The notes beneath the pieces are model-generated. The model made no database searches, was not told the origin of the DNA, and was given only the letters and a program-made list of their open reading frames with translations. Below are positions 12,673 through 25,163 of a DNA stretch of 64,000 nucleotides, piece by piece; the first letter of the stretch is position 1, and each line of letters opens with the position of its first letter. A program made the translations under genes and the position numbers. The DNA is taken from contig JAFRER010000011.1 of assembly GCA_017434755.1 (NCBI GenBank), forward strand, positions 51,589 through 115,588, read 5' to 3'. Origin of the DNA: Oscillospiraceae bacterium (GTDB lineage Bacteria > Bacillota > Clostridia > Oscillospirales > Oscillospiraceae).

Positions 12673-12691
12673 GCGATTGGAGATGATCAGC

Positions 12692-13996
12692 GTGCTGATG
12701 ACAGACCTTATTGCTGCCAAACGAGACGGAAGAGAGCTTTCTACCGAGCAGATACAATTCATGATTAACAACTTCACATCCGGGAGCATTCCGGATTACC
12801 AGATGGCTTCCATGTGCATGGCAATACTATTCAGAGGTATGAACGACCGAGAGATCCTGGATCTCACACTTGCAATGGAAAGATCGGGCGACATCCTCGA
12901 TCTGTCGGGAATAAAGGGTGTCAAGGCCGATAAGCATTCCACCGGAGGAGTGGGGGACAAAACCACACTTGTCCTGTGCCCGATGATAGCAGCCCTCGGA
13001 GTCAAATTTGCGAAAATGTCCGGACGCGGGCTCGGACACACAGGCGGAACAATAGACAAGCTTGAGAGCTTTCCCGGCTTTACTACTGCAATAAGCGAAG
13101 AGCAATTCATCTCAAATGTAAACAGGATAGGGATAGCTATAGCTGGTCAGACTGGCAACCTTGTCCCTGCAGATAAAAAAATGTATGCGCTGAGAGATGT
13201 AACGGGAACCGTGCCATCTGTTCCGTTGATTGTAAGTAGTATCATGTCAAAGAAACTTGCTGCAGGAGCAGATGTGATAGTGCTTGACGTAAAATGCGGA
13301 GAGGGCTCCTTCATGAAGACAAAGGCGGATGCCGAAAAGCTTGCATCACAGCTTGTTCGGGTCGGAAAACTTGCCGGCAAAAAGGTCACTGCCGTCATCA
13401 CGGATATGGATGAACCGCTCGGATATGCCGTGGGTAATGCACTTGAAGTAAAAGAGGCGATCGCAGCGCTTAACGGTGCTGAATGCGGAGAGCTTATGAA
13501 CCTTTGTCTGACCCTCGGATCCTATATCCTTATTGATGCAGGGATGACGGACAAGGAGGAAGAAGCGCGATCAATGCTCCGCCGGACGGTGGAGGACGGC
13601 AGCGCACTGAAAAAGCTTGTGGAACTGGTGGAGGCCCAGGGGGGCGATCCGGCTGCCGTATATGATACCTCGCGTCTGCCTGATGCACCTGTTAAGATGG
13701 ATGTGCGCAGCAGCAGCAAAGGCTATGTGAAGCATATCGCTGCGGAGAATGTGGGACTGGTGTCCATGCATCTCGGAGGAGGAAGGATAACCAAGGATAG
13801 CGAGATAGATCTCTCGGTCGGTGTGGTGCTTAATAAGAAGGTAGGGGACCATGTTGACGAGGGAGAGGTCCTTGGTACTGTTCACGCCACAAATGAAGAG
13901 GCAGCGGCGAAAGCGGCGGATGAACTGCGGGCCTGCTATTTCCTGACCGAGCGGAAAGGCAGAAAAGAAAAGTTCGTTAAAGCCGTTGTAAGATAA
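12692..13996 (+). CDS. pdp: Pyrimidine-nucleoside phosphorylase
   Basis: Splits uridine, thymidine or deoxyuridine with phosphate into the base and (deoxy)ribose-1-phosphate. 434 residues. The family signature SGRGLGHTGGTIDKLESFPG and the phosphate-binding KHSTGGVGDKTTL are present. GTG 12692 is chosen because GGAGA at 12679-12683 is 8 bases upstream and the protein then begins at the position where Bacillus Pdp begins (VLMTDLI against MRMVDII). A longer TTG start and ATG 12698 are possible. It is followed after 49 bases by the isomerase-like pair A1/B1, suggesting a joint role in nucleoside-sugar use. Confidence 0.9.
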   Translation: MLMTDLIAAKRDGRELSTEQIQFMINNFTSGSIPDYQMASMCMAILFRGMNDREILDLTLAMERSGDILDLSGIKGVKADKHSTGGVGDKTTLVLCPMIAALGVKFAKMSGRGLGHTGGTIDKLESFPGFTTAISEEQFISNVNRIGIAIAGQTGNLVPADKKMYALRDVTGTVPSVPLIVSSIMSKKLAAGADVIVLDVKCGEGSFMKTKADAEKLASQLVRVGKLAGKKVTAVITDMDEPLGYAVGNALEVKEAIAALNGAECGELMNLCLTLGSYILIDAGMTDKEEEARSMLRRTVEDGSALKKLVELVEAQGGDPAAVYDTSRLPDAPVKMDVRSSSKGYVKHIAAENVGLVSMHLGGGRITKDSEIDLSVGVVLNKKVGDHVDEGEVLGTVHATNEEAAAKAADELRACYFLTERKGRKEKFVKAVVR

Positions 13997-14045: not shown

Positions 14046-14966
14046 ATGAATAAGTATTCCTATATGAACCATTGGATGATGCAGTCTCCGCAGGGACTTA
14101 CCTCACCGGATGTGAGACGGTCCTATATGGACCTGTATCTGAAGCAGATCGCGGCTCTGGGATTCAGCGGACTGGACATCTTTTCCTTTACGATCGATAA
14201 ATTTGCACGCATGTTCGGTTCCTTTATCAAGTTTGAGGAGTATCTGAAAGACCTGGGATTTGAAAAGGTGTCCGGGATCTTCAACGCATACATCGGCGAC
14301 AATAAAGCGCTGCTCCCGCATGTAAGGGAATGCCATGATGCGATCTTCCAAGATTTTGAGGAAGCCTGCATCAAGGCGGAGGGAACGGGTGTGGAGACAT
14401 TCATTGCCATGCCTGCCGCCAGCTACTGTTACTGCGAACCCGTAACGGATGAAAAGATCAGGAATCTGGCCGAGCTGTGGAACAGGGTAGGGGAGATGAC
14501 ATTGACGAAATACGGCATTCATCTCTCCATGCACCATGAGTTCTGGTGCGGACTGCGCGAGATCGAAGCGATACGGAAATTCTACCGCTGGACAGACCCA
14601 CGTTACGTTTATTTCTTCTGCGATACGGCGCAGCACAGGATCGCAGGGGTGGATCCGGCACAGCTTTACGACGAACTGCATGAGAGGACCTGGGGATTCC
14701 ATCTGAAAGATACGCGCGACACGGACTTCGAGTATTATCGTCTTCCGCCGGACACGGAACTGATGGTCCCCGATGTTCCCCGCTGGTTTTTTGAAGCGGG
14801 GGAAGGGATCGTTGATTTTCCCGCCGTATACAGGAAGATGAAAGAGCATAACTATGATGGATGGATCAGCGTTGAGCACGATAAGGCTGAAATAGGCGGC
14901 GGGAACTTCTCGGAGTGTACCGGCGTATCGGCATGGTATATTCGAAATGTGCTGCAGAAGATCTGA
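14046..14966 (+). CDS. Sugar phosphate isomerase/epimerase-like TIM-barrel protein A1 (catalytically intact)
   Basis: 306-residue xylose-isomerase-like (AP endonuclease 2 family) TIM barrel, the fold of IolE, hydroxypyruvate isomerase and ketose 3-epimerases. The four metal-ligand positions of this fold are present: Glu165 (HHEFWCGL), Asp193 (FFCDTAQH), His219 (WGFHLKDT) and Glu277 (WISVEHD). GGAGGG precedes the ATG. It lies between pdp and B1, and has a close paralogue A2 at 23246 with the same motifs. The reaction is probably isomerisation, epimerisation or dehydration of a keto-sugar or inosose-like compound; the substrate is unknown. Confidence 0.8.
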   Translation: MNKYSYMNHWMMQSPQGLTSPDVRRSYMDLYLKQIAALGFSGLDIFSFTIDKFARMFGSFIKFEEYLKDLGFEKVSGIFNAYIGDNKALLPHVRECHDAIFQDFEEACIKAEGTGVETFIAMPAASYCYCEPVTDEKIRNLAELWNRVGEMTLTKYGIHLSMHHEFWCGLREIEAIRKFYRWTDPRYVYFFCDTAQHRIAGVDPAQLYDELHERTWGFHLKDTRDTDFEYYRLPPDTELMVPDVPRWFFEAGEGIVDFPAVYRKMKEHNYDGWISVEHDKAEIGGGNFSECTGVSAWYIRNVLQKI

Positions 14967-14980
14967 GGGAGGTATATGCA

Positions 14981-15958
14981 ATGGCTATTAAGTGGGCTTA
15001 TTCCCTAAATGCGTGGGATAATGAAGAGAATTCCGTCCGAAAGGATAGAAATGAGCGTACGTTCAAGGTGATAGCTGCTGCGGGGTTTAAAGGCATTGAG
15101 ATGCAGATCGGCAGCGGCCGGTGGAAACCGCTGGGGCGTCCTCTGATCATCAGCCAGATCTACGGAGGGACTAAAGAGTTTGATACGTATCTGAAGGATC
15201 TGGGGATCGAACAGATCGTTGCCTGGGACTATGATCCTGGAATGATGTCAGGCGAGGAAAATGTATTCGGAAGAGATCCTTCCGAGCCTGCTCAGCATGA
15301 GGGGATCGTCGCGGCTCTGGAGCAGTTTGCCGCCTTCCTCGGGGAAGTGGGATCGAAGTATCTGGTTATAAGGCCGATGTGTTCCTACTGGCAGACGGCG
15401 CCGGTAACAGAAGAAAAGATCGCAGCTGCCGCGGCATGCTGGAACAAAGTGGGAAAGATGACTTCCCGATACGGAGTGAAAGTGCTGCTGCGCTTTGACT
15501 GGTTCTGCGCGGCCAACGATCGCCGCGCGATCGACAAACTGATGGCGGAGACCGATCCGGAGCTTGTCGGGCTTTGCCTGAATACCGGTGAGCTCGCGAT
15601 AGTGGAGATCGACCCGATAGAACTCTATGAGGCTTATGCAGACAGAGTCGGACTGCTGCAGTTCAAGGATGTCCGTGTTACGGATTCCCTTCAGGAGTAT
15701 AAAAAGCCCTTTGCAGAAGAGATTATCAAAAACGGCGGCGAACGCGGCATCGACCGCTGGTTCTGGGAGATGGGACGCACGGAGTGCCCCGGCCTGGTGG
15801 ACTTTCCCACTATGATGAAAGCGGTCAGAGCCCACGGCTATGACGGATGGATCGTTGTGGAAAGCGACCAGTCTGCCGACCCGCCCGCAAGCGTCCTGTT
15901 CAACAGTTGGTATGTACAGAATGTGCTTGATCCGGACTGGAAGCTGAAGAAGCTTTAA
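14981..15958 (+). CDS. Sugar isomerase/epimerase-like TIM-barrel protein B1 (degenerate metal site)
   Basis: 325 residues, same fold as A1 and 14 bases downstream of it. At the four metal-ligand positions it has Asp173 (RFDWFCAAN), Asn201 (LNTGEL), Gln227 (LLQFKDV) and Glu294 (VVESDQ), so only the last Glu is unchanged. The scaffold and the C-terminal DPPASVLFN tail are well kept and match B2 at 24204. This suggests a structural or regulatory partner of A1, or an enzyme with a changed mechanism. ATG 14981 follows GAGGGAGG. A strong terminator follows at 16018. Confidence 0.75.
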   Translation: MAIKWAYSLNAWDNEENSVRKDRNERTFKVIAAAGFKGIEMQIGSGRWKPLGRPLIISQIYGGTKEFDTYLKDLGIEQIVAWDYDPGMMSGEENVFGRDPSEPAQHEGIVAALEQFAAFLGEVGSKYLVIRPMCSYWQTAPVTEEKIAAAAACWNKVGKMTSRYGVKVLLRFDWFCAANDRRAIDKLMAETDPELVGLCLNTGELAIVEIDPIELYEAYADRVGLLQFKDVRVTDSLQEYKKPFAEEIIKNGGERGIDRWFWEMGRTECPGLVDFPTMMKAVRAHGYDGWIVVESDQSADPPASVLFNSWYVQNVLDPDWKLKKL

Positions 15959-16017
15959 GAGGCGTTCCGCTTTTACGGGTCCGGTCATCCCGGTACCTTC
16001 AGCTCCTATAGAAAATG

Positions 16018-16059
16018 AACCGGCCTCCGAATGATCGTTATATCATTCGGAGGCCGGTT
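16018..16059. terminator. Strong bidirectional terminator between B1 and the minus-strand ABC operon
   Basis: An 18-base perfect stem AACCGGCCTCCGAATGAT / ATCATTCGGAGGCCGGTT with a 6-base loop separates the convergent operons. The T-tracts on both sides are short, but the stem is very stable. Confidence 0.75.
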
Positions 16060-16099
16060 TCAGTACATATAAGGAGCTTGCTCGAATCCCTGTTCCGGA

Positions 16100-17095
16100 T
16101 CAGCCCTCCTGTTTTGCTGCCTGCCTGCGAAGCTTTATTCTTCTGATGGCATCGCCGGCACTCTCTCTGTTTGCAGAGATCAGCATGACAAAGAGAAGGA
16201 AGAAGCCGGTAACAAAATCCTGGATCGTCGTCGGCAGTCCGGCGGCCATCAGACCGTTGAAGATAATGGCCATTCCAAGTTCGCCGACCAGAATGTTCAC
16301 TAAGAAATTATCATAGATACGGTTCAGTTCGATACCGATAAGCACGCCCATCATGGGCTTGAATACCATGGGAAGGCTGCCCATGGACATTTTTGCGGCA
16401 ATGGTGTTCGAATAGCATACCTGAAGGATCGCAGCAAAACCAAAGAAGAAACCGCATACCGTATAGCAGAGGAACTTGACCTTGATGGGCTTGATGCCGA
16501 GACTCTTTGCCACGACTTCGTTGTTTCCGATCGCTCTGACATGACTGCCGAAAGCAGTATTGTAGAAGATCAGCAGGAACAGGATGCCCAGTATGGCGAT
16601 TATCACGAAGTTGTACGGTACCTTGCCGATAAAGCCAAGAGACTTATCGAGATCCATCTTTCCCTTGCCGCCGGCAATCCAGCGTCCAATAACCTCAAGG
16701 ATCAGGCACATGCCGAGGGAGATGACCATCGAAGGAATACGAAGCAAGGCGAATACGGCACCTTTCAGCAAACCGGTCAGAACGCCTGTTACGATGCAGC
16801 CGATAATGAAACCGGGCATGCCAAAGGTTTTGCTGAACTGGACACCGACGATACCGATAAGAATGATCTGGGCACCGGCAGACAGTTCCATCATGCCGGC
16901 CTTCATCAAAAAACACATACCGTAGCCGATGGCCATGGGGATCATGCTCTGATTCAGTATGACCAGGATGCTGTTAGGCCCGAAACCGGGAGTGGCGACC
17001 CAGAAGATCACAAACAGTATCACGGGGATGGCAGCCATCCACAGGAACTTCTTTATACCGCCGGCCAGCTTGCTTCCGAACGAATTCGTATTCAT
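16100..17095 (-). CDS. Sugar ABC transporter permease 2 (RbsC/LsrD-like)
   Basis: 331-residue polytopic permease of the CUT2 family. Helices are evident throughout, with MKAGMMELSAGAQIILIG as the counterpart of the usual GIDLSVG region and AIGNNEVVAKSLGI as the conserved cytoplasmic loop. It is the last gene of the minus-strand operon, after the binding protein. The operon also has a different permease at 18456, so the channel is probably a heterodimer as in Lsr-type importers. GGAG precedes the ATG. Confidence 0.82.
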   Translation of the reverse strand: MNTNSFGSKLAGGIKKFLWMAAIPVILFVIFWVATPGFGPNSILVILNQSMIPMAIGYGMCFLMKAGMMELSAGAQIILIGIVGVQFSKTFGMPGFIIGCIVTGVLTGLLKGAVFALLRIPSMVISLGMCLILEVIGRWIAGGKGKMDLDKSLGFIGKVPYNFVIIAILGILFLLIFYNTAFGSHVRAIGNNEVVAKSLGIKPIKVKFLCYTVCGFFFGFAAILQVCYSNTIAAKMSMGSLPMVFKPMMGVLIGIELNRIYDNFLVNILVGELGMAIIFNGLMAAGLPTTIQDFVTGFFLLFVMLISANRESAGDAIRRIKLRRQAAKQEG

Positions 17096-17179
17096 GACAA
17101 TTCACTACTCCTTAATGTCGGTCGCGATGATTTGGTAAAAAAACAATCAGAATGAAGAAGTGCTTTTAATGATTCCGGG

Positions 17180-17212
17180 ATATCCGGACCGGAGAGTGTC
17201 CGGTCCGGATAT
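17180..17212 (-). promoter_or_regulatory. Intercistronic hairpin after the second binding-protein gene
   Basis: ATATCCGGACCGG and CCGGTCCGGATAT form a 13-base stem with a 7-base loop and no T-tract. It has the same position relative to the binding-protein gene as the hairpin at 1547. Confidence 0.55.
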
Positions 17213-17222
17213 GAATTTAAGA

Positions 17223-18404
17223 TCAGCCGCCGTGGCGCGCTGCGAGATCGGCCATGCTGTAGCTGTCAGCAACTTCCTGAACTTTTGCAATTCCAGTGCC
17301 GAGGAGCAGCTCCTGGCATTCGTCGATGTGGTAGAGGGGATCGCCAGTGAGTGCGAGATCCTGATATGCTTTTGCATCAGCAGCAGACTCAAGATAGAGG
17401 AAGGGGCAAACGACCGTGACGGGCTTTCCGCCGTCAAGGGGAGTGCCAATGATGGCGTTGGTCACGATGACGGAGCAGAGAGCACGGTCAGGCATGCAGT
17501 GGCCGCCGCAAAGGGCAACTGCAATACCGTTCTCAAAGCTGCTTTCCATATCGGTACCGAAGTCGCAGGAACCGAGGAACACCTTGCCGACCTTGTTGTT
17601 GCTGACTATTGCGTCTTCAAGAGCCTCGAAAACACCGGATGTCTGGCAGGAGAGCATCATGATTCCGTCAAGACCGTCGATCGTGGCCATCCAGCTTTCG
17701 GCAGCAGCTGCTGCGTCACTGGCCTGAGCGGGGGAACGAAGCTCGCCGACGACTTCAACACCGGCTTTCGCAAAGGCGTCTCTCATACCGGCCTCGCGGG
17801 CTTCGGCAGTGGTGTCACCCTTCTGGATGCTGATGAAGGCAACCTTTTTGATGCCCTTTTCAGCCATGAGGTTTGCAACATAGTATCCGGCGTCGTACTC
17901 ATTCTCAACGGTGTTGCCGGCGTAGTAGGGGCATGCTTCAACGATCGCTTTCACTTCGGGATCGTTAATGGAGCGGAAGGTGAGCGCGAAGTAAACACCG
18001 GCGTCACCGCAGAGCTTTGCAACGGTGGGGAGCATGGAGTCAGCGGAGGGAGTGAACATGAGGCCTGCAACGCCTGCGCTGATGGCAGACTCGATTGCAG
18101 TGATGGTCTCATCGGCGTCGGATCCGCCTTCAACGAATACCATCTCACCGCCGGCTGCCTCAACAACAGCAGCGGCGTTGTTATACATACCCTGGCTGCT
18201 GGCGTCGGCGATCGGGAAATCGATATAGGCGACTTTGAACTTGGGGGCAGAGGATTCGGTGCTTGCAGCAGCAGGGGCGCTGCCGGACTGCGTGGTTCCG
18301 GAAGCGGCGGGCTGCTCAGTGGTGGCTGCGGTGGTGCTTCCGCATCCGGAGAAGAGCGCAACTGCAAAAACGAGCGCTAAGAGCAATGCGATGTACTTTT
18401 TCAT
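17223..18404 (-). CDS. Sugar ABC transporter substrate-binding lipoprotein
   Basis: 393 residues. The lipoprotein signal (MKKYIALLLA..., lipobox LFSGC, Cys21) is followed by a Ser/Thr/Ala/Pro-rich linker to about residue 52 and then a type I periplasmic-binding fold (FKVAYIDFPIADASSQGM; DETITAIESAISAGV). The start at 18404 is preferred to 18419 because AAGGGA is well placed only for it. The gene lies between two permease genes, so the order is ATPase, permease, binding protein, permease. The ligand is probably the sugar or derivative processed by the A/B proteins on either side, an inference from context. Confidence 0.85.
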   Translation of the reverse strand: MKKYIALLLALVFAVALFSGCGSTTAATTEQPAASGTTQSGSAPAAASTESSAPKFKVAYIDFPIADASSQGMYNNAAAVVEAAGGEMVFVEGGSDADETITAIESAISAGVAGLMFTPSADSMLPTVAKLCGDAGVYFALTFRSINDPEVKAIVEACPYYAGNTVENEYDAGYYVANLMAEKGIKKVAFISIQKGDTTAEAREAGMRDAFAKAGVEVVGELRSPAQASDAAAAAESWMATIDGLDGIMMLSCQTSGVFEALEDAIVSNNKVGKVFLGSCDFGTDMESSFENGIAVALCGGHCMPDRALCSVIVTNAIIGTPLDGGKPVTVVCPFLYLESAADAKAYQDLALTGDPLYHIDECQELLLGTGIAKVQEVADSYSMADLAARHGG

Positions 18405-18455
18405 TTCTTTCCCTTTCATAAAGATGATTTATTTAATCCACGGATCAGTGGTGGA

Positions 18456-19424
18456 TTACTTGATGAAGGCAACCGTCTTTCTGTTGAATGTAAGGGCAAC
18501 GGCAGCAAGGAAGATCACGCCGCGAACAAACTGCTGGACCAGGACGTCAAGGCTGACGACATTCATGCCGTTCGTCAGGACGGTCATGGTCAGTCCGCCG
18601 ATGATCGCCGCCCGGAATTTTGCGCTGGTGCCGCCGGTAATGGGCATTCCGCCAAGAAATAGAGAGAGCATACAATCCATTTCAAAGCCGTCTCCCGTGC
18701 CGGATGTGGAGGTGCCTGTCCGGATAAGGCTGAAGAATGCCAGGAAGCCGGCCATCACGCCCGTGATCATATAGGCCGTCATCTTCACATTCGCGATGTT
18801 GATGCCGGACTGCCTTGCTGCCGTCTCATTCGAGCCGACTGCACGGCAGCGCTTGCCGAGCTTGCCGTATTCAAATACGATATAACCTATTGCAACAACC
18901 ACTATAAGAGTTATGAGCCTGAGCCAGGTGCTGTCCCAATTGAGCATCGAATAGGGAACGCTGGCTGAACCGCCGCCGAGGATGGTGTCAAGCAGACCGC
19001 CCAGCATGAACGACATCGACAGAGTTGTTATAAATGCATTTACATGCAGTTTTGCATGAACGAATCCGTTGACCAGACCGATAACGGCTCCGACCAGAAG
19101 CGTGACGAATACAGCGGGAGGGCCGAATGCCTTGGCAGATATGGCACCGATCGCGGCGCACAGGCCGATCGCGGATCCGTAGGACAGATCGATGGCTCCC
19201 TGTGAAATAACGAACGCCAGGGCCGATGCACCAAGGATCATGCGGAATGCTTCTGTCAGAATGGTCTTCAGATTCCTCGCAGCGAGAAGCCTTCCGCCGC
19301 TCCAGACGGAAAACAGAACAACAATGATGAAAAGAGCGACAAAGGGATACAGCTTCATCGCAACACTTTTTACAGTATTGGCTGATATCCTTTTTTCTTC
19401 TGCTGTCTTAACTGTCTCGTTCAT
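18456..19424 (-). CDS. Sugar ABC transporter permease 1 (RbsC/LsrC-like)
   Basis: 322-residue CUT2 permease with motifs QGAIDLSYGSAIG and LGGMPITGGTSAKF, the counterparts of GIDLSVGS and GGxSxxGG. It is clearly different from the permease at 16100, so the transporter has two distinct membrane subunits. ATG 19424 follows GGTGGTGAG; an upstream TTG at 19442 is in frame but less likely. It lies directly after the ATPase gene. Confidence 0.82.
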   Translation of the reverse strand: MNETVKTAEEKRISANTVKSVAMKLYPFVALFIIVVLFSVWSGGRLLAARNLKTILTEAFRMILGASALAFVISQGAIDLSYGSAIGLCAAIGAISAKAFGPPAVFVTLLVGAVIGLVNGFVHAKLHVNAFITTLSMSFMLGGLLDTILGGGSASVPYSMLNWDSTWLRLITLIVVVAIGYIVFEYGKLGKRCRAVGSNETAARQSGINIANVKMTAYMITGVMAGFLAFFSLIRTGTSTSGTGDGFEMDCMLSLFLGGMPITGGTSAKFRAAIIGGLTMTVLTNGMNVVSLDVLVQQFVRGVIFLAAVALTFNRKTVAFIK

Positions 19425-19443
19425 TTTCTCACCACCCAACAAA

Positions 19444-20949
19444 TCATATCATATAATTGATCAGGTCGCTTTCCTTGAGATCCGGATTTCTCGGGAACTC
19501 ACCGGAAATGAGGCCGTCTTTGATGATCAGGATCCTGTCGCTCATTCCTATAACCTCGGGAAGCTCTTCGGAGATCATGATGATCGCCTTGCCCTGCGCT
19601 TTCAGTTCAGAAAGCAGCTGATAGATGGCGGCTTTAACACCTACGTCGATTCCTCTGGTCGGGCAGTCGAGAATGAACACATCCGCGTGGAAGCCGAGCC
19701 ATTTTGCCACGGCGACCTTCTGCTTGTTGCCTCCGGAAAGGTACATGACGAACTGGTTCATGTTATCCATCTTGATCTGCAGTTCGTTTGTCCAGGTGTT
19801 TACCAGATCCTTTTCCTTCTTATTGGAAATAAGACCGAGGCCGTTGGCCAGCTTGTTAAGAGAGGCGATACAGATATTGTCCCGGATGCTCATAACGGAA
19901 AACAGCGCTTCCTGGTCTCTGTTCTTTGAAATGTAAGCAAAATCGTTTTTTATGGCATCCGTGTTTTTCTTTATGCGTTTTCCGTAGCCGGTCTCAACGC
20001 TGCCGAGATCGGGTTTATCAAGCCCGAAAAGGATCCTGCCGAGATCGTGCATGCCGCAGTCGGCAAGTCCTCCGACGCCCAGAATCTCGCCCTTATGCAG
20101 ATCGAAGGAGATATCCCTGAGACAGCCGAGAGCAAGGTTCCTTGCCCTGAGGGCCACCTCATCGCTGAAGCTGCCGTCGTAATCGTTGCGATAGAAGTTG
20201 TCTTCGATCTCACGGCCGACCATCTGGCGCTTGATACCGAGACTGGTGAAATCCTTTTTCTCCATCTCGGCGACCTTGTGACCGTCGCGGAGGATCGAGA
20301 TCCTGTCGCATACTTCCATGATTTCATCAATATCGTGGGAGATGAAGATCACGGCTCTTCCGGAATCCCGGATGCTGTTGATGACGCTGTAAAGAATGTC
20401 TCTTCCTCTTTTGCCGAGCGTGGTGGAAGTCTCGTCGATGATGAGGATCTTCGGATCCGCATACACGGCGCGGGCGATCTCGACCAGTTTCCTGTCTTCA
20501 AATACGAGCTTTCCGGCAAGAGTCGACACATTTATATGCGTAACGCCGATATTTTCGAGGGCTTTTTTAGCCGCCTTCTTCATTTGGGCGTTGTTGACGA
20601 CGGGACCTGTGGCAAACTGCTTTTCTTCACCGATAAAGATATTGGCGGCAACGGAAAGATCCTCAAAGGTGGCCTGTTCCTGCGTGACCATGCAGATCCC
20701 TTCAGCGGTGGCTGCGATAACGTCCGGCGGGGAATAGGGCTGTCCCTCAAGGTACATTTCTTCCTGATCGCCTTTCTGGATACGGGCAATGATCGTGGTC
20801 AAAGTGGACTTTCCGGAACCGTTTTCACCGATAAGGCCTACGACCTCGCCTGCATATACATCAAGGCTGACGTCGACAAGGGCCTTTGTGGGGCCGAAGG
20901 ATTTGTACATGTTTTTCGCCTGAAACAGCAGTTTCTTCTCATCAGACAT
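19444..20949 (-). CDS. Sugar ABC transporter ATP-binding protein, two ABC domains
   Basis: 501 residues, RbsA/LsrA type. The first domain has Walker A GENGSGKST and Walker B ILIIDETSTTLGKRG, in which the usual DEPT is DETS. The second domain has the degenerate nucleotide loop typical of the family (GVGGLADCGMHDL), signature LSGGNKQK and Walker B VFILDCPTRGIDVG. ATG 20949 is chosen for its GGAGGG site; the frame is open about 50 codons further upstream without a good site. It is the first gene of the operon, with a consensus promoter at 21077-21105. Confidence 0.88.
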   Translation of the reverse strand: MSDEKKLLFQAKNMYKSFGPTKALVDVSLDVYAGEVVGLIGENGSGKSTLTTIIARIQKGDQEEMYLEGQPYSPPDVIAATAEGICMVTQEQATFEDLSVAANIFIGEEKQFATGPVVNNAQMKKAAKKALENIGVTHINVSTLAGKLVFEDRKLVEIARAVYADPKILIIDETSTTLGKRGRDILYSVINSIRDSGRAVIFISHDIDEIMEVCDRISILRDGHKVAEMEKKDFTSLGIKRQMVGREIEDNFYRNDYDGSFSDEVALRARNLALGCLRDISFDLHKGEILGVGGLADCGMHDLGRILFGLDKPDLGSVETGYGKRIKKNTDAIKNDFAYISKNRDQEALFSVMSIRDNICIASLNKLANGLGLISNKKEKDLVNTWTNELQIKMDNMNQFVMYLSGGNKQKVAVAKWLGFHADVFILDCPTRGIDVGVKAAIYQLLSELKAQGKAIIMISEELPEVIGMSDRILIIKDGLISGEFPRNPDLKESDLINYMI

Positions 20950-21076
20950 TTCTTTTGACCCTCCAAAAAAAGCACAGACGGCTTTATTGCTTGAACTCGT
21001 TTTTTTGGTGAAAAAGAATTCTTGTTTTATCTGCCACTGTGCATTAAAAAGACGTTTGAAATTGCTCTCTAAGTTA

Positions 21077-21105
21077 ATAATAGATGGTCGCAAAGGAAAT
21101 GTCAA
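21077..21105 (-). promoter_or_regulatory. Promoter of the two-permease sugar ABC operon
   Basis: On the minus strand TTGACA (21100-21105) and TATTAT (21077-21082), spacer 17 bases. The leader to the start at 20949 is about 120 bases. Confidence 0.8.
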
Positions 21106-21263
21106 TATAAATTTTTATCTTTTTCTAAGAATCATAAAAAGCTTTTCGGATCGGGATTTTGTCAAAAAACGTTGATATTCAATTAATTTAAATGCCGGAC
21201 CATCTGGATGGCGATTAATAATAACGGAATTAAAGAAACTTTTTATGGGACTTAAAATTACTG

Positions 21264-21292
21264 TTGACAAAAGGTTTTCCCTGTACTATTTT
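21264..21292 (+). promoter_or_regulatory. Promoter of the VOC gene
   Basis: TTGACA at 21264-21269 and TATTTT at 21287-21292, spacer 17 bases. Confidence 0.65.
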
Positions 21293-21359
21293 AAAAACAG
21301 GTAGGATTCTCTGAAAAACAGTTGTTATTATGAAATGCGACAGGAAAAGGAGATTAAAA

Positions 21360-21833
21360 ATGGATACTCAGTTTGCCAAATTCCTGCAGATAGGGATCAT
21401 CGTCGAGAACATCGATGAAGCGATCAAACACTATGCAGAGTACGGTATCGGACCCTGGAGAATGGGCGGGATCGACAACAAAGTATTCCCGGAGATCATC
21501 GTGAACGGGAAAAAAGGTGTTGAAATCTGCACGCGCAATGCTTTTATCAACATGTACGGCTTTGAACTGGAACTCATCGAACCGGTCTCCGCGAGCCCCT
21601 ATAAGACCTGGCTTGAAGAGCACGGCCCCGGTATCCACCATATCGCCGTCATCACCCGGGATCCATTCGAAAAAGTCATTGAGGAGCATAAAGCTCTTAC
21701 CGGCAAGGATCCCTGGCTCTGGTGCAAGGAAGCCAACATCGGCATGGAATTTGCCTATCTTGATCTTTGCAAAGAGCTCGGTCTTTTCGTTGAGATCTAC
21801 AACGAGGATAAGACCGGCGGTCTCGAGGCATAG
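21360..21833 (+). CDS. VOC (glyoxalase/methylmalonyl-CoA epimerase-like) protein
   Basis: 157 residues with two beta-alpha-beta-beta-beta modules of the vicinal oxygen chelate fold. Likely metal ligands are Gln10 (FLQIGIIV), Glu71 (FELELIEP), His93 or His94 (GIHHIAVI) and Glu145 (GLFVEIY), an arrangement like methylmalonyl-CoA epimerase. ATG 21360 follows AAAGGAGA. It is divergent from the sugar ABC operon and upstream of the ROK and A2/B2 genes. A role in epimerising or isomerising a sugar-derived keto compound is plausible; the substrate is unknown. Confidence 0.8.
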   Translation: MDTQFAKFLQIGIIVENIDEAIKHYAEYGIGPWRMGGIDNKVFPEIIVNGKKGVEICTRNAFINMYGFELELIEPVSASPYKTWLEEHGPGIHHIAVITRDPFEKVIEEHKALTGKDPWLWCKEANIGMEFAYLDLCKELGLFVEIYNEDKTGGLEA

Positions 21834-21883
21834 TACTGAGCGGTATATCTTATCATTTTAATCCGTAATATTCTGCAGTTTAG

Positions 21884-21930
21884 CGGCAGCTGTCTTCCCA
21901 TCCGGCATCAGGATCCGAACGCAGCTGCCG
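21884..21930. promoter_or_regulatory. Inverted repeat upstream of the ROK regulator gene
   Basis: CGGCAGCTG at 21884-21892 and its exact complement CAGCTGCCG at 21922-21930 are spaced by 29 bases. It may be a hairpin ending the VOC transcript or a bipartite operator for the ROK protein. Confidence 0.35.
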
Positions 21931-22001
21931 TTCATAAAAAAACGATCGTCACAGTCAGCAGTTCTTCTTTTATTATTCTTTTCAAAGAGGTTTGAACAGA
22001 C

Positions 22002-23198
22002 GTGAGACTGCATAGTACTTCAGAGATACGCAGGCAGAATGCTTTTCATATCGTCAGGGAGGTCATCGATCATCCTGACAACACCGTTTCCGACATTTCC
22101 CGGAAGTACGGCATCAGTGTTGCCACGGTCTCCAGCATCATATCGATCCTCCGAAACGACGGCCTTCTTGTCCTGAGCGGTGAGAAAGCCTCCACCGGCG
22201 GCCGGAAGGCGCTTCTTTATTCGATCAATCCGGAATATGCATATTTCGTCGGGATCAGTATCACGGTGCATACGGTCAAATCCGTTTTGATCCGGATGGA
22301 CGGGCTTGTACTGAAGCAGACCTTCCTTTACCGGACATTTGAAGACACAAAGGAGTACTGTGATTTTATTTACGATCTTTACCTTCGGACGGCGGAAGGC
22401 GTAAAAGAACCGTCCGCTGTTGTGCTGTCTTTTCCCGGGCGTTTCGATAAGGATACCTCTGTCATCACCAGAGATGACGGTTTCGTCGTGGATGTTTTCA
22501 ACATTGAAAAGATCCTGTTCTGCTTCCGGGATGTAAAAGGTTTTTCCGTATGCGACGCATCGAAATTCAGCGCGCTTCCGATGCTGCAGACAAATCCGGA
22601 TCTGAACGACTGTGTCTTCGTCTCGATAAACAGGGCCATCTCCGGAACGATCATACGCGACGGGCATCTGTTTCCCCTGAGTAAAAGCGACTGCAATTTC
22701 GGAAAGATGATCGTCGGAGCGGAATCCTGTCCTGATAAAAAGCCCGCGTTCCGGTCTTTCGCTGCCTGCTGCTCGGCGAGCCATATTGTCGATACGCTGA
22801 AATCACTGGGCCTTGAGAACATCGTTATGGAAAATGCCGGGGATCCGGGGGTCAGCCGGTATTCCGGATTCTTCAGAGAGATTCGCGAAGGGAACAGAAT
22901 GTTCCAAAGACTGTGGGATGTTTATCTCTTTAATCTTGCGGCGGGGCTGAACAACATTTATGCCATGTTCGGACTCCCGATCGTTATCAGCGGTGACATG
23001 GCCAACAAGATTTCCGGTTTTTCCGATGAGCTCCACGCGCATCTTTCCGCACTGAATGCGGACATTACCCGAGACAGCATTTCCTTCAGCGAGACCGGCC
23101 TCTTTGACGATCCGATCGGCGCCGCGCTGAAAGCAAGGTACGATCTGCTGGAGGAGCTCGTCCTGCAGGCCTCGAACAGAAGATCAGCAGAAGAATAA
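22002..23198 (+). CDS. ROK family transcriptional regulator (NagC/XylR type) with degenerate sugar-kinase site
   Basis: 398 residues. A winged helix-turn-helix at about 20-75 (TVSDISRKYGISVATVSSII) precedes a ROK domain. The ROK phosphate loop, normally D-x-G-x-T, reads VGISITVHTVK, without the Asp. The CxCGxxGCxE zinc motif is also not recognisable (AESCPDKKPAFRSF). It is thus a sensor or regulator, not a kinase. The GTG start is preceded by AAAGAGG. It heads A2 and B2 with 47 bases between, and probably controls these genes and the divergent ABC operon, a neighbourhood inference. Confidence 0.8.
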   Translation: MRLHSTSEIRRQNAFHIVREVIDHPDNTVSDISRKYGISVATVSSIISILRNDGLLVLSGEKASTGGRKALLYSINPEYAYFVGISITVHTVKSVLIRMDGLVLKQTFLYRTFEDTKEYCDFIYDLYLRTAEGVKEPSAVVLSFPGRFDKDTSVITRDDGFVVDVFNIEKILFCFRDVKGFSVCDASKFSALPMLQTNPDLNDCVFVSINRAISGTIIRDGHLFPLSKSDCNFGKMIVGAESCPDKKPAFRSFAACCSASHIVDTLKSLGLENIVMENAGDPGVSRYSGFFREIREGNRMFQRLWDVYLFNLAAGLNNIYAMFGLPIVISGDMANKISGFSDELHAHLSALNADITRDSISFSETGLFDDPIGAALKARYDLLEELVLQASNRRSAEE

Positions 23199-23245
23199 TC
23201 CTGTTTAACAATACGATCATCAGCAATTTAAAAGGAGGGCCAGAT

Positions 23246-24199
23246 ATGAACAACATCAAGTATTCCTACATGGATCACTGGGAGATCCATACGGCGGCGG
23301 GGCTGACCGCGCCCGGCTGCCGCCGGACCTACCTTGAGCGCTACCTCAAGGAACTCAGAGCGCTCGGGTATGTCGGACTCGACACCTTCGCCGCCCGCCT
23401 GCCGTATTACGGCAGACTCGTTGCCGGTAAAAACGGGACACCCGTTGATTTCGAGAACTATCTCAAAGATCTCGGGTTCGAAAGACTGGTCAGCATGTTC
23501 CTGGATTTCATAGGGAACAACCCTGCGGAGCGGATCGCCGATCCGGCCTGCCATGACCAGATTTTCAACAAGTTCCGCGCGGCCTGTGAGATGGCAAAGG
23601 GCACCGGGATCGACACCTTCATCGTTATGCCCGCATGCCAGTACTTCTACACCGATCCGGTTACCGAGGACCACATAAAGCATACCGCCGATTTCTGGAA
23701 CCGGACGGGCAAGATGATGTTGGAGGACTATGGTATCCATGCGGCATGCCATCATGAGTTCTGGTGCGGACTTCGCGATAAATGGGCGATCGATCTGTTC
23801 TATGAGCTCACAGACCCGAAGTATGTATGGTATTTCTGCGACACGGCCCAGCATGTCATAGCCGGCGTGGATCCGGTGGCGCTTTATGAACAGCTGCACG
23901 ACAGGACCTGGGGATTCCACCTGAAAGACACGAAGAACACCGATCCGAAAGCATACCGCATCCCTCCCGATGCCGAGTGCATGGCGGAAGATGTGGAGCG
24001 CTGGTTCTATGAGGCCAACGGAGAAGGCCTGTGTGATTTCCCCGCACTCTACAGAGCGATCAAAAAGTACGGTTACAGCGGCTGGATCAGCAGCGAGCAT
24101 GATAAAGCCGAGTTTGAAGGAAAGAGCTTTGCCGACTGCACGGCCCAGGGAGTATGGTATATCAAGCATGTGCTCGATCCTATCCTGAAGGAGGGTTAA
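23246..24199 (+). CDS. Sugar phosphate isomerase/epimerase-like TIM-barrel protein A2 (catalytically intact)
   Basis: 317 residues, paralogue of A1 with long shared motifs (HHEFWCGLR, CDTAQH, TWGFHLKDT). Metal-ligand positions are intact: Glu171, Asp199, His225 and Glu284. Compared with A1 it has a short insertion near residues 58-66. AAAGGAGGG precedes the ATG. It follows the ROK gene and is 4 bases from B2, so A2 and B2 are probably made together and may form a complex. The substrate is unknown. Confidence 0.8.
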   Translation: MNNIKYSYMDHWEIHTAAGLTAPGCRRTYLERYLKELRALGYVGLDTFAARLPYYGRLVAGKNGTPVDFENYLKDLGFERLVSMFLDFIGNNPAERIADPACHDQIFNKFRAACEMAKGTGIDTFIVMPACQYFYTDPVTEDHIKHTADFWNRTGKMMLEDYGIHAACHHEFWCGLRDKWAIDLFYELTDPKYVWYFCDTAQHVIAGVDPVALYEQLHDRTWGFHLKDTKNTDPKAYRIPPDAECMAEDVERWFYEANGEGLCDFPALYRAIKKYGYSGWISSEHDKAEFEGKSFADCTAQGVWYIKHVLDPILKEG

Positions 24200-24203
24200 G
24201 AAG

Positions 24204-25163
24204 ATGGCGATGAAATGGGCTTATTCGATCAATGCATGGAATATCACGGCCAATTCCGCGCGCAAGCAGCATAACGAGAGAAATTTCAAAACCATAGTGG
24301 CAGGCGGGCTGGACTGCATCCAGATGAAGATCGCCACCTACCGCATGAAGCCGCTGGGCAGGCCGCTCATAATCAGCCAGGTCTACGGCGGAGTAAAAGA
24401 GTTCGACGAGTATCTGAAAAACATCGGCATCAAACAGATCGCTGGCTGGGATTACGATCCGACGGCGCCCTATGCCGAAGAGAACTGCGACGGCCGTGAC
24501 CCTACGGATCCCGCGCAGCACGAAGGGATCGTCGATGCGCTTGTCCAGTTTGCCGAGTTTCTGAAGACCGTCGGCGGTGACAACTTCTGCGTACGGCCGA
24601 TGGGCGCATTGTGGCGTGCCGGCGAAGTGACCGACGAAAAACTGAAGGCAGTCGCGGAGTGCTGGAACAAGGTCGGCCGGATGAGCGCACAATACGGCGT
24701 CAAAGTGATCCTGGACCCCGACTTCCTTTGCGCTGCGAACAGCCTGCATGCAATAGACGTGCTCATGGCGAACACCGACAAAGAGAATGTGTTCCTCGCG
24801 ATCGATACGGCGGCGCTTGCACTGGTGGGCATCGATCCCGTTGAAGTGTATGAAAAATATGCCGATCGTGTCGCGATGCTGCGGCTCGAGCAGGTGTTTA
24901 CCACCGACGAGCTCAATGAGCGTGCCCAGCCTTTTGCGGAGGATATCCTCAGCACAGGCGGTGAACGGGGTCTTTCCAGATGGTTCTGGGAAATGGGGGC
25001 TCCGGAGGGAGAAGGTCTTGTCGATTTCCCGAAACTGATCTCCGCGGCGAAGAACGGAGGCTTTGACGGCTGGTGCGTGGTCTGCACCACGCAGTCCGAA
25101 GATCCTTCCGCCTCGGTGCTTTTCAATGAATGGTATGTGGAGAACGTTCTGAAGAAGATCTGA
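24204..25163 (+). CDS. Sugar isomerase/epimerase-like TIM-barrel protein B2 (degenerate metal site)
   Basis: 319 residues, paralogue of B1 (shared MKWAYS, LGRPLIISQ, GRDP and AQHEGIV motifs). At the four metal-ligand positions it has Asp173 (DPDFLCAAN), Asp201 (AIDTAAL), Arg227 (AMLRLEQV) and Cys294 (CVVCTTQS). B1 and B2 thus differ from the ligand set in different ways: B2 keeps the Asp that B1 lost, and B1 keeps the Glu that B2 lost. This argues for loss of metal catalysis while the scaffold is conserved. It is followed by a terminator at 25180. Confidence 0.75.
   Translation: MAMKWAYSINAWNITANSARKQHNERNFKTIVAGGLDCIQMKIATYRMKPLGRPLIISQVYGGVKEFDEYLKNIGIKQIAGWDYDPTAPYAEENCDGRDPTDPAQHEGIVDALVQFAEFLKTVGGDNFCVRPMGALWRAGEVTDEKLKAVAECWNKVGRMSAQYGVKVILDPDFLCAANSLHAIDVLMANTDKENVFLAIDTAALALVGIDPVEVYEKYADRVAMLRLEQVFTTDELNERAQPFAEDILSTGGERGLSRWFWEMGAPEGEGLVDFPKLISAAKNGGFDGWCVVCTTQSEDPSASVLFNEWYVENVLKKI

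Follow-up and report, generated by a model that had tools for sequence, protein, structure and literature searches.

Two pairs of adjacent genes, A1-B1 and A2-B2, lie in a 64,000-nucleotide stretch of DNA from an Oscillospiraceae bacterium (the whole stretch is hereafter called the window), and each of them codes for two related triosephosphate isomerase (TIM)-barrel proteins, of which one (A) keeps a complete set of metal ligand positions and the other (B) does not. Based on the recurrence of this split in related genomes, on the near-constant adjacency of the two genes and on the selection acting on B, it is quite probable that A and B form a heteromer with a non-catalytic B subunit. As to its reaction, we favour, with little better than even confidence, a 3-keto-glycoside lyase. 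That gut and soil bacteria can deglycosylate plant O- and C-glycosides without hydrolysis, via 3-keto intermediates, has been recognised only recently.

The gene pairs and their products

The four genes are the following:
14046..14966, + strand: A1, TIM-barrel protein of 306 residues, with the predicted metal site H163, D193, H219, E277 and with E165 in the catalytic position
14981..15958, + strand: B1, TIM-barrel paralogue of 325 residues, with R171, N201, Q227 and E294 at the ligand positions
23246..24199, + strand: A2, TIM-barrel protein of 317 residues, with the predicted metal site complete
24204..25163, + strand: B2, TIM-barrel paralogue of 319 residues, with D171, D201, R227 and C294 at the ligand positions

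Ribosome sites are present at all four genes. B1 starts at an ATG preceded by GGGAGG (the list of open reading frames opens it instead at an upstream GTG, 14915), and A2 and B2 are separated by 4 bases. Protein identity is 54% between A1 and A2, 59% between B1 and B2, and 27-31% between A and B. All four proteins match PF01261, which is the only Pfam match of B1 and B2 at a cut-off of E 0.001; since these two do not match PF19906, the CGDB family of C-glycoside deglycosidase (CGD) partners, an identity with C-glycoside deglycosidase is ruled out for B. The scores against the IolE family TIGR04379 are weak (69, 82, 61 and 55 bits, the curated cut-off being 290), and the predicted fold of B1 is an intact barrel.

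Metal ligand positions in A and B

The original prediction had taken Glu165 as the first metal ligand of A. Every residue which it named in A1, A2, B1 and B2 occurs at the number it gave; the first ligand, nevertheless, is placed by our alignments two positions earlier, at His163. In alignments of the A profile, A1 His163 lines up with the first His of the H-x-H motif of IolE (3cny) and of a 3-keto-glucoside lyase (8tct), Glu165 lines up with the second, and all 16 rows of an IolE-like outgroup show H-x-H, D, H-x-K and E at these columns. In published descriptions, His132 is the ligand and His134 the catalytic residue in AtOGE (PMC10628242), and Glu147 and His149 have these respective roles in C-glycoside deglycosidase (PMC8563793). 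Because of the alignments, the residue roles in these two enzymes and the outgroup rows, the predicted ligand set of A1 is H163, D193, H219 and E277, with E165 in the position of the catalytic residue or base. One of the four ligands is left unchanged in each window B protein (E294 in B1 and D201 in B2).

A scan of genome contigs for A gave 48 loci, mostly in Lachnospiraceae and Oscillospiraceae assemblies (many from ruminants), and also in Catenibacillus scindens, Faecalicatena orotica, Novosphingobium, Sphingomonas and Actinomyces ruminis; being based on an active-site peptide pattern, such a scan would miss an A protein whose site had changed, a limit from which the profile searches described below are free. 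From 132 domain hits in these and other loci, 115 distinct sequences of at least 230 residues were kept (the 17 dropped ones were shorter or identical, and include a fragment in locus L085; L086 yielded no hit). A proteins were defined by their residue pattern (60) and B proteins as the rest (55), which makes the constancy of A partly circular: His163, Glu165, Asp193, His219 and Lys221 occur in 60 of 60, and Glu277 in 58, the remaining two being cut short there. Among the B proteins, the first ligand is gone in 54 of 55 (Arg 26, Lys 17, Asn 5, Thr 4, Asp 2), and His219, Lys221 and Glu277 are retained in 15, 8 and 23, respectively. Position 165 is Glu in 39 and Asp in 14, and one B subclade (13 of 55) has E-D-C-D/E at 165/193/219/277, with Arg or Lys at the first ligand. 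The difference proposed earlier, with A keeping the full metal site and B not, recurs in the 115 homologues once the ligand set is corrected to His163. Checked for a metal site built from other residues, B1 and B2 reveal no obvious one; the subclade just described might still bind metal.

As the split recurs in these homologues and genome samples taken without regard to pairing show the pairs as well, the A/B division goes beyond chance; together with the open frames and their ribosome sites, the recurrence in the family rules out an annotation artefact as well. In two trees (support 0.81; Shimodaira-Hasegawa-like approximate likelihood ratio test 91), a branch separates exactly the A set from the rest. 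For B, the evidence is borderline against a single clade: the tree requires two changes for B, and the approximately unbiased test of a single B clade gives p 0.048.

Pairing, co-divergence and selection

An adjacent B (same strand, at most 400 bases away) accompanies 58 of the 60 A genes, and the other two (L012 and L068) lie at contig ends, the L012 contig still showing the first 45 residues of a B. In 298 genomes drawn evenly from the Lachnospiraceae, the family of C. scindens (itself included), profile searches found five A and five B genes above 300 bits, all of them paired and in the same three genomes. No orphan A or B above 300 bits was seen in this sample, in which at most seven candidates were scored per genome (as in the order-wide searches) and the B profile covered clade I only; the next score after the A genes is 104 bits, and the B profile then picks A proteins (at most 122 bits), followed by 76 bits. 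With a profile for B clade II, that of the window, the full-length matches found among 60 relatives outside the window's genome (two in genome G014) adjoin an A. An A gene above 300 bits occurs in one of 295 genomes of the window's order (the window's genome only) and in five of 101 of its genus. Four further A genes of the genus (two in G674, one each in G687 and G009) are likewise accompanied by an adjacent B; a fifth stretch, L198, is fragmentary and lies where its contig ends. The co-occurrence anticipated for A and B therefore extends across the family, and a B without A, looked for in the genome samples, was not found.

In 53 pairs, the gap between the coding parts is 0-68 bases with the stop codon included, or there is an overlap of 12, with the order B-A in 41 and A-B in 12. 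The distance matrices of the A and B partners correlate with r 0.939 (maximum of 2000 permutations, 0.193), a value that includes shared species history, and B evolves 1.55 times faster than A. Across the 38 of 125 close pairs in which dS could be computed, and in comparisons that share sequences, the ratio of non-synonymous to synonymous substitutions (dN/dS) has a median of 0.034 in A and of 0.114 in B; as dS is often near saturation, the ranking of A below B is firmer than the values themselves. B is conserved under purifying selection and is not decaying, and these ratios rule out a decaying pseudogene. Two marks of a pseudoenzyme-enzyme heteromer are observed here: B is a paralogue which has lost active-site residues (54 of 55 B), and it is kept by selection and co-inherited with its presumably active partner, physical contact between the two proteins being a prediction. 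The obligate heteromer originally predicted is thereby well supported by gene evidence as regards the obligate pairing with a degenerate partner, and had to be amended as regards the first ligand, which was two residues off.

Some loci depart from a simple pair. L073 (also L191) holds an A-B-A-B-A array, and in Actinomyces ruminis a first B copy (L040:786-1894) is split across two overlapping frames (a frameshift or an assembly error), the second B being intact.

Gene context of the A-B loci

The gene context was surveyed in 50 loci (window 4001-36000, L009, L010, L107 and L039-L084), many of which are cut by contig ends. They hold VOC proteins (23 loci), Gfo/Idh (20, some of the matches being weak, 53-91 bits), aldo/keto reductases (19), hydratase homologues (15), thiolase-like (11) and ChsH2-like (11) proteins, and GMC enzymes (5), with at least one of hydratase, Gfo/Idh and GMC in 25 of the 50. 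The C. scindens hydratase homologue matches the solved AtHYD (8ro4) with E 2e-50, and in Actinomyces (L040) the genes for A, B, GMC, Gfo/Idh and hydratase are consecutive. The VOC, aldo/keto reductase and thiolase-like neighbours may be a sign that the pair works alongside an aglycone pathway. Behind A-B in Lachnospiraceae (L049, L050, L056, L060, L061, L062, L066, L067 and others) stand the thiolase-like and ChsH2-like genes (zinc ribbon, OB fold), which we take to resemble steroid side-chain aldolase partners.

Of the 101 genomes of the genus, 19 have CGDB, and these include all five that are A-positive (Fisher p 1.5e-4); in nine A-carrying genomes CGDB is missing from one, G062 (Oribacterium, the source of L047). 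Frames of 475-495 residues beside A-B (L191:5764-7224, L192:10523-12010 and L190:13968-15395) match both the CGD alpha query (86-375 bits) and CGDB, and are apparent natural CGD alpha-beta fusions.

The window's genome (2.34 Mb, 27 contigs) has four CGDB genes; outside the window, its contig 3 carries a pair A3-B3 and its contig 25 a pair A4-B4, which makes four pairs. On contig 3, the end of a hydratase gene at the contig edge is followed by XylB, XylA, B3 and A3; on contig 7, an identical-looking hydratase end at the edge is followed by Gfo/Idh, CGDB and a homologue of CGD alpha (7bvr, E 1e-50). Comparing both layouts, A3-B3 occupies the place of the deglycosidase in the other operon, and the neighbouring XylA and XylB suggest a xyloside as its substrate. 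Hydratase fragments, two of each part, are found at the ends of contigs 3, 7, 4 and 12 (L009 end, L163 end, L165 end and L164 start), and probably correspond to two near-identical copies that broke the assembly. The neighbours of A4-B4 (L010:11485-18129) comprise an FAD_binding_2 reductase with proteins that, by reading, we assume to be NuoF/NuoG-like; a similar set, named in the same way, stands behind the G014 pair (L201:11383-16000), and an FMN reductase adjoins A4-B4 only. These redox genes serve, perhaps, for aglycone reduction.

Proposed mechanism and alternative explanations

In the explanation which we favour, and to which we give slightly more than an even chance, one A-B gene pair would yield one heteromeric 3-keto-glycoside beta-eliminase with a pseudoenzyme subunit, the complex, the metal, the reaction and the role of B all being predicted. 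A would descend from IolE-like stock as a TIM barrel with a divalent metal, Glu165 having replaced the second active-site His, and B would be a paralogue which lost the metal site and was retained as a non-catalytic subunit. A Gfo/Idh or GMC enzyme would first oxidise the glycoside to the 3-keto-glycoside, from which A-B would eliminate the aglycone (beta-elimination), leaving a 2-hydroxy-3-keto-glycal to be converted into the free sugar by the hydratase and a reductase. This succession of oxidation, elimination, hydration and reduction has been reported both for AtOGE and for C-glycoside systems (PMC10628242, PMC13273386), and the same scheme for levoglucosan (PMC7676230). The role of B would most likely be to complete the active site and read the aglycone, by analogy with the unrelated beta subunit of the C-glycoside deglycosidases, which shapes the active site and aglycone pocket (PMC8563793). 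We place A-B at the elimination step because the gene context covers the other steps, the site of A matches that of the lyases except for Glu165, and the deglycosidase partner shapes the aglycone pocket. The A profile matches the 3-keto-glucoside lyases 8tct, 8tcs and 8tcd with E 8e-10 to 3e-9.

Several observations weigh against this explanation, beyond the predicted status of the complex, the metal and the activity. The best match of A is IolE (E 1.5e-21) and not a lyase, and the catalytic position is Glu in A and His in the known lyases. Nearest neighbours match between the A and B trees in 31 of the 53 pairs, locus L072 (also L192) has two A to one B (A-B-A), and one B (Actinomyces, L040:2846-3892) retains all four ligands. 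Regarding the context, no hydratase, Gfo/Idh or GMC gene is found around the window pairs (4001-36000), 25 of the 50 loci have none of the three (many of these loci end early), and the VOC and aldo/keto reductase genes (23 and 19 of 50) are as common as the pathway genes and are left without explanation.

Alternatively, A and B could be separate enzymes for consecutive steps (for instance, elimination and then hydration or epimerisation), adjacent for the purpose of co-regulation, with B metal-free or using another site. An Agrobacterium operon, in which two sugar phosphate isomerase-like proteins are an eliminase and (preliminarily) a hydratase (PMC10628242), offers a precedent, and the catalytic position 165, still acidic in nearly all B (Glu in 39 and Asp in 14 of 55), is consistent with it; given that 15 of the 50 loci hold a hydratase homologue besides A and B, and that the B ligand positions vary by subclade with no site in common, we consider it unlikely. 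Another possibility is that the heteromer dehydrates or epimerises some other keto-ring substrate (inosose, keto-acid or aglycone intermediate). This might be thought from IolE, which of the solved structures is closest to A and B in sequence and, among the matches listed, in fold, and from the frequent VOC, aldo/keto reductase, thiolase-like and ChsH2-like neighbours. The hydratase, Gfo/Idh, GMC and CGD context argues otherwise, as do XylA and XylB beside A3-B3, which fit xylose release, and this reading seems to us equally improbable; inososes, earlier named as candidate substrates, are less likely than 3-keto-glycosides when judged from the neighbours of related pairs. Finally, B could be a second metalloenzyme which holds its metal by other residues. 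E-D-C-D/E is a possible metal set in the subclade of 13, and the Actinomyces B has all four ligands, to be set against the Arg or Lys that 43 of 55 B (those 13 included) have in place of the first ligand and the lack of any set common to the B subclades, which leaves a second metalloenzyme very unlikely.

Returning to the heteromeric eliminase, it is conceivable, at somewhat less than an even chance, that it represents a further 3-keto-glycoside lyase architecture, in which a metal TIM barrel is activated by its own degenerate paralogue, B being the aglycone-reading and faster-evolving part, and the pairs having multiplied into arrays, with four of them in the window's genome and A-B-A-B-A in a relative. 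If true, this would be a second kind of two-part lyase, with a dead enzyme copy replacing the beta-sandwich subunit, and would equip bacteria of rumen and gut to deal with many plant glycosides. It would also provide a clear case of a pseudoenzyme as obligate partner in Clostridia, Actinomyces and sphingomonads, with targets ready for assay. A TIM-barrel pseudoenzyme partner of the A-B kind was not found in the literature searched, most subscription journals being outside its coverage.

Comparison with known systems

Judging from the sequences, A-B belongs to none of the named families compared, given that B does not match CGDB and that A lacks both the IolE score and the H-x-H motif. The C-glycoside deglycosidases (DgpBC, DfgAB, CarBC; 7bvr, 7exz, 7bvs) are likewise encoded by two adjacent genes, for a metal TIM barrel and a site-shaping partner (PMC8563793), and they occur in the same genomes as A-B and near some of the pairs. 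Their partner is, however, a small CGDB beta-sandwich (PF19906) and not a TIM barrel, and their first ligand and base are arranged as E-x-H (PMC8563793), whereas A has H-x-E. The PDB matches of the A profile at a cut-off of E 0.01 (16 rows) include no CGD alpha, and a true CGD alpha of the window's genome matches 7bvr (1e-50).

The 3-keto-beta-glucopyranoside-1,2-lyases AL1/BT1 (8tcd, 8tcr, 8tcs, 8tct) and AtOGE share with A the superfamily and the proposed reaction. By alignment, 8tct and 8tcs have the first-ligand His in common with A, but the AL1/BT1 motif is H-x-H and that of A is H-x-E. AtOGE, compared by description and not by sequence, is a homodimer (PMC10628242), unlike the paired A-B. 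The inosose dehydratase IolE (3cny, 9zmu) is the nearest solved relative by sequence, and also by fold among the matches listed. It has H-x-H with D, H-x-K and E, whereas A has H-x-E in 60 of 60 and B is without the first His in 54 of 55, and the A and B proteins score far under the TIGR04379 cut-off; no paired pseudoenzyme is described for IolE in the literature surveyed. AtHYD, a 2-hydroxy-3-keto-glucal hydratase (8ro4), has a PF01261-type fold like A and B and is a pathway neighbour, its homologue being a separate protein in A-B operons (with the motif E-x-H in C. scindens).

DfgCD, the flavonoid O-glucosidase of C. scindens (AKC35075.1, AKC35076.1), is a two-gene deglycosylating system (PMC8398226) from a species with two A-B pairs. 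Compared by description only, it could in principle be an A-B pair; the hosts reported for it (Hungatella and Eisenbergiella, PMC8398226) fit poorly, as they are not among the 48 A loci. Our guess is that DfgCD would instead be a hydratase plus a Gfo/Idh enzyme.

Neighbouring genes in the window

Three further features lie between the two pairs or just upstream of A2:
16100..20946, - strand: ribose-type sugar ATP-binding cassette (ABC) transporter, made up of two permeases, a binding protein and an ATPase, located between pair 1 and pair 2
21360..21833, + strand: VOC (Glyoxalase_4) protein, searched from 21357, with homologues in 23 of the 50 A-B loci, window included
22002..23198, + strand: NagC/ROK-like regulator, upstream of A2 (Pfam winged helix, weak NagC match)

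Upstream of pair 1, a gene on the same strand (12677-13996), which is presumably a pyrimidine-nucleoside phosphorylase, ends 49 bases before A1. It has no homologue at E 1e-15 in nine related loci (one of which stops right at A), and a conserved link between it and pair 1 was rejected on these grounds. The ABC transporter is the probable importer of the substrate, and the NagC/ROK-like protein a probable local regulator.

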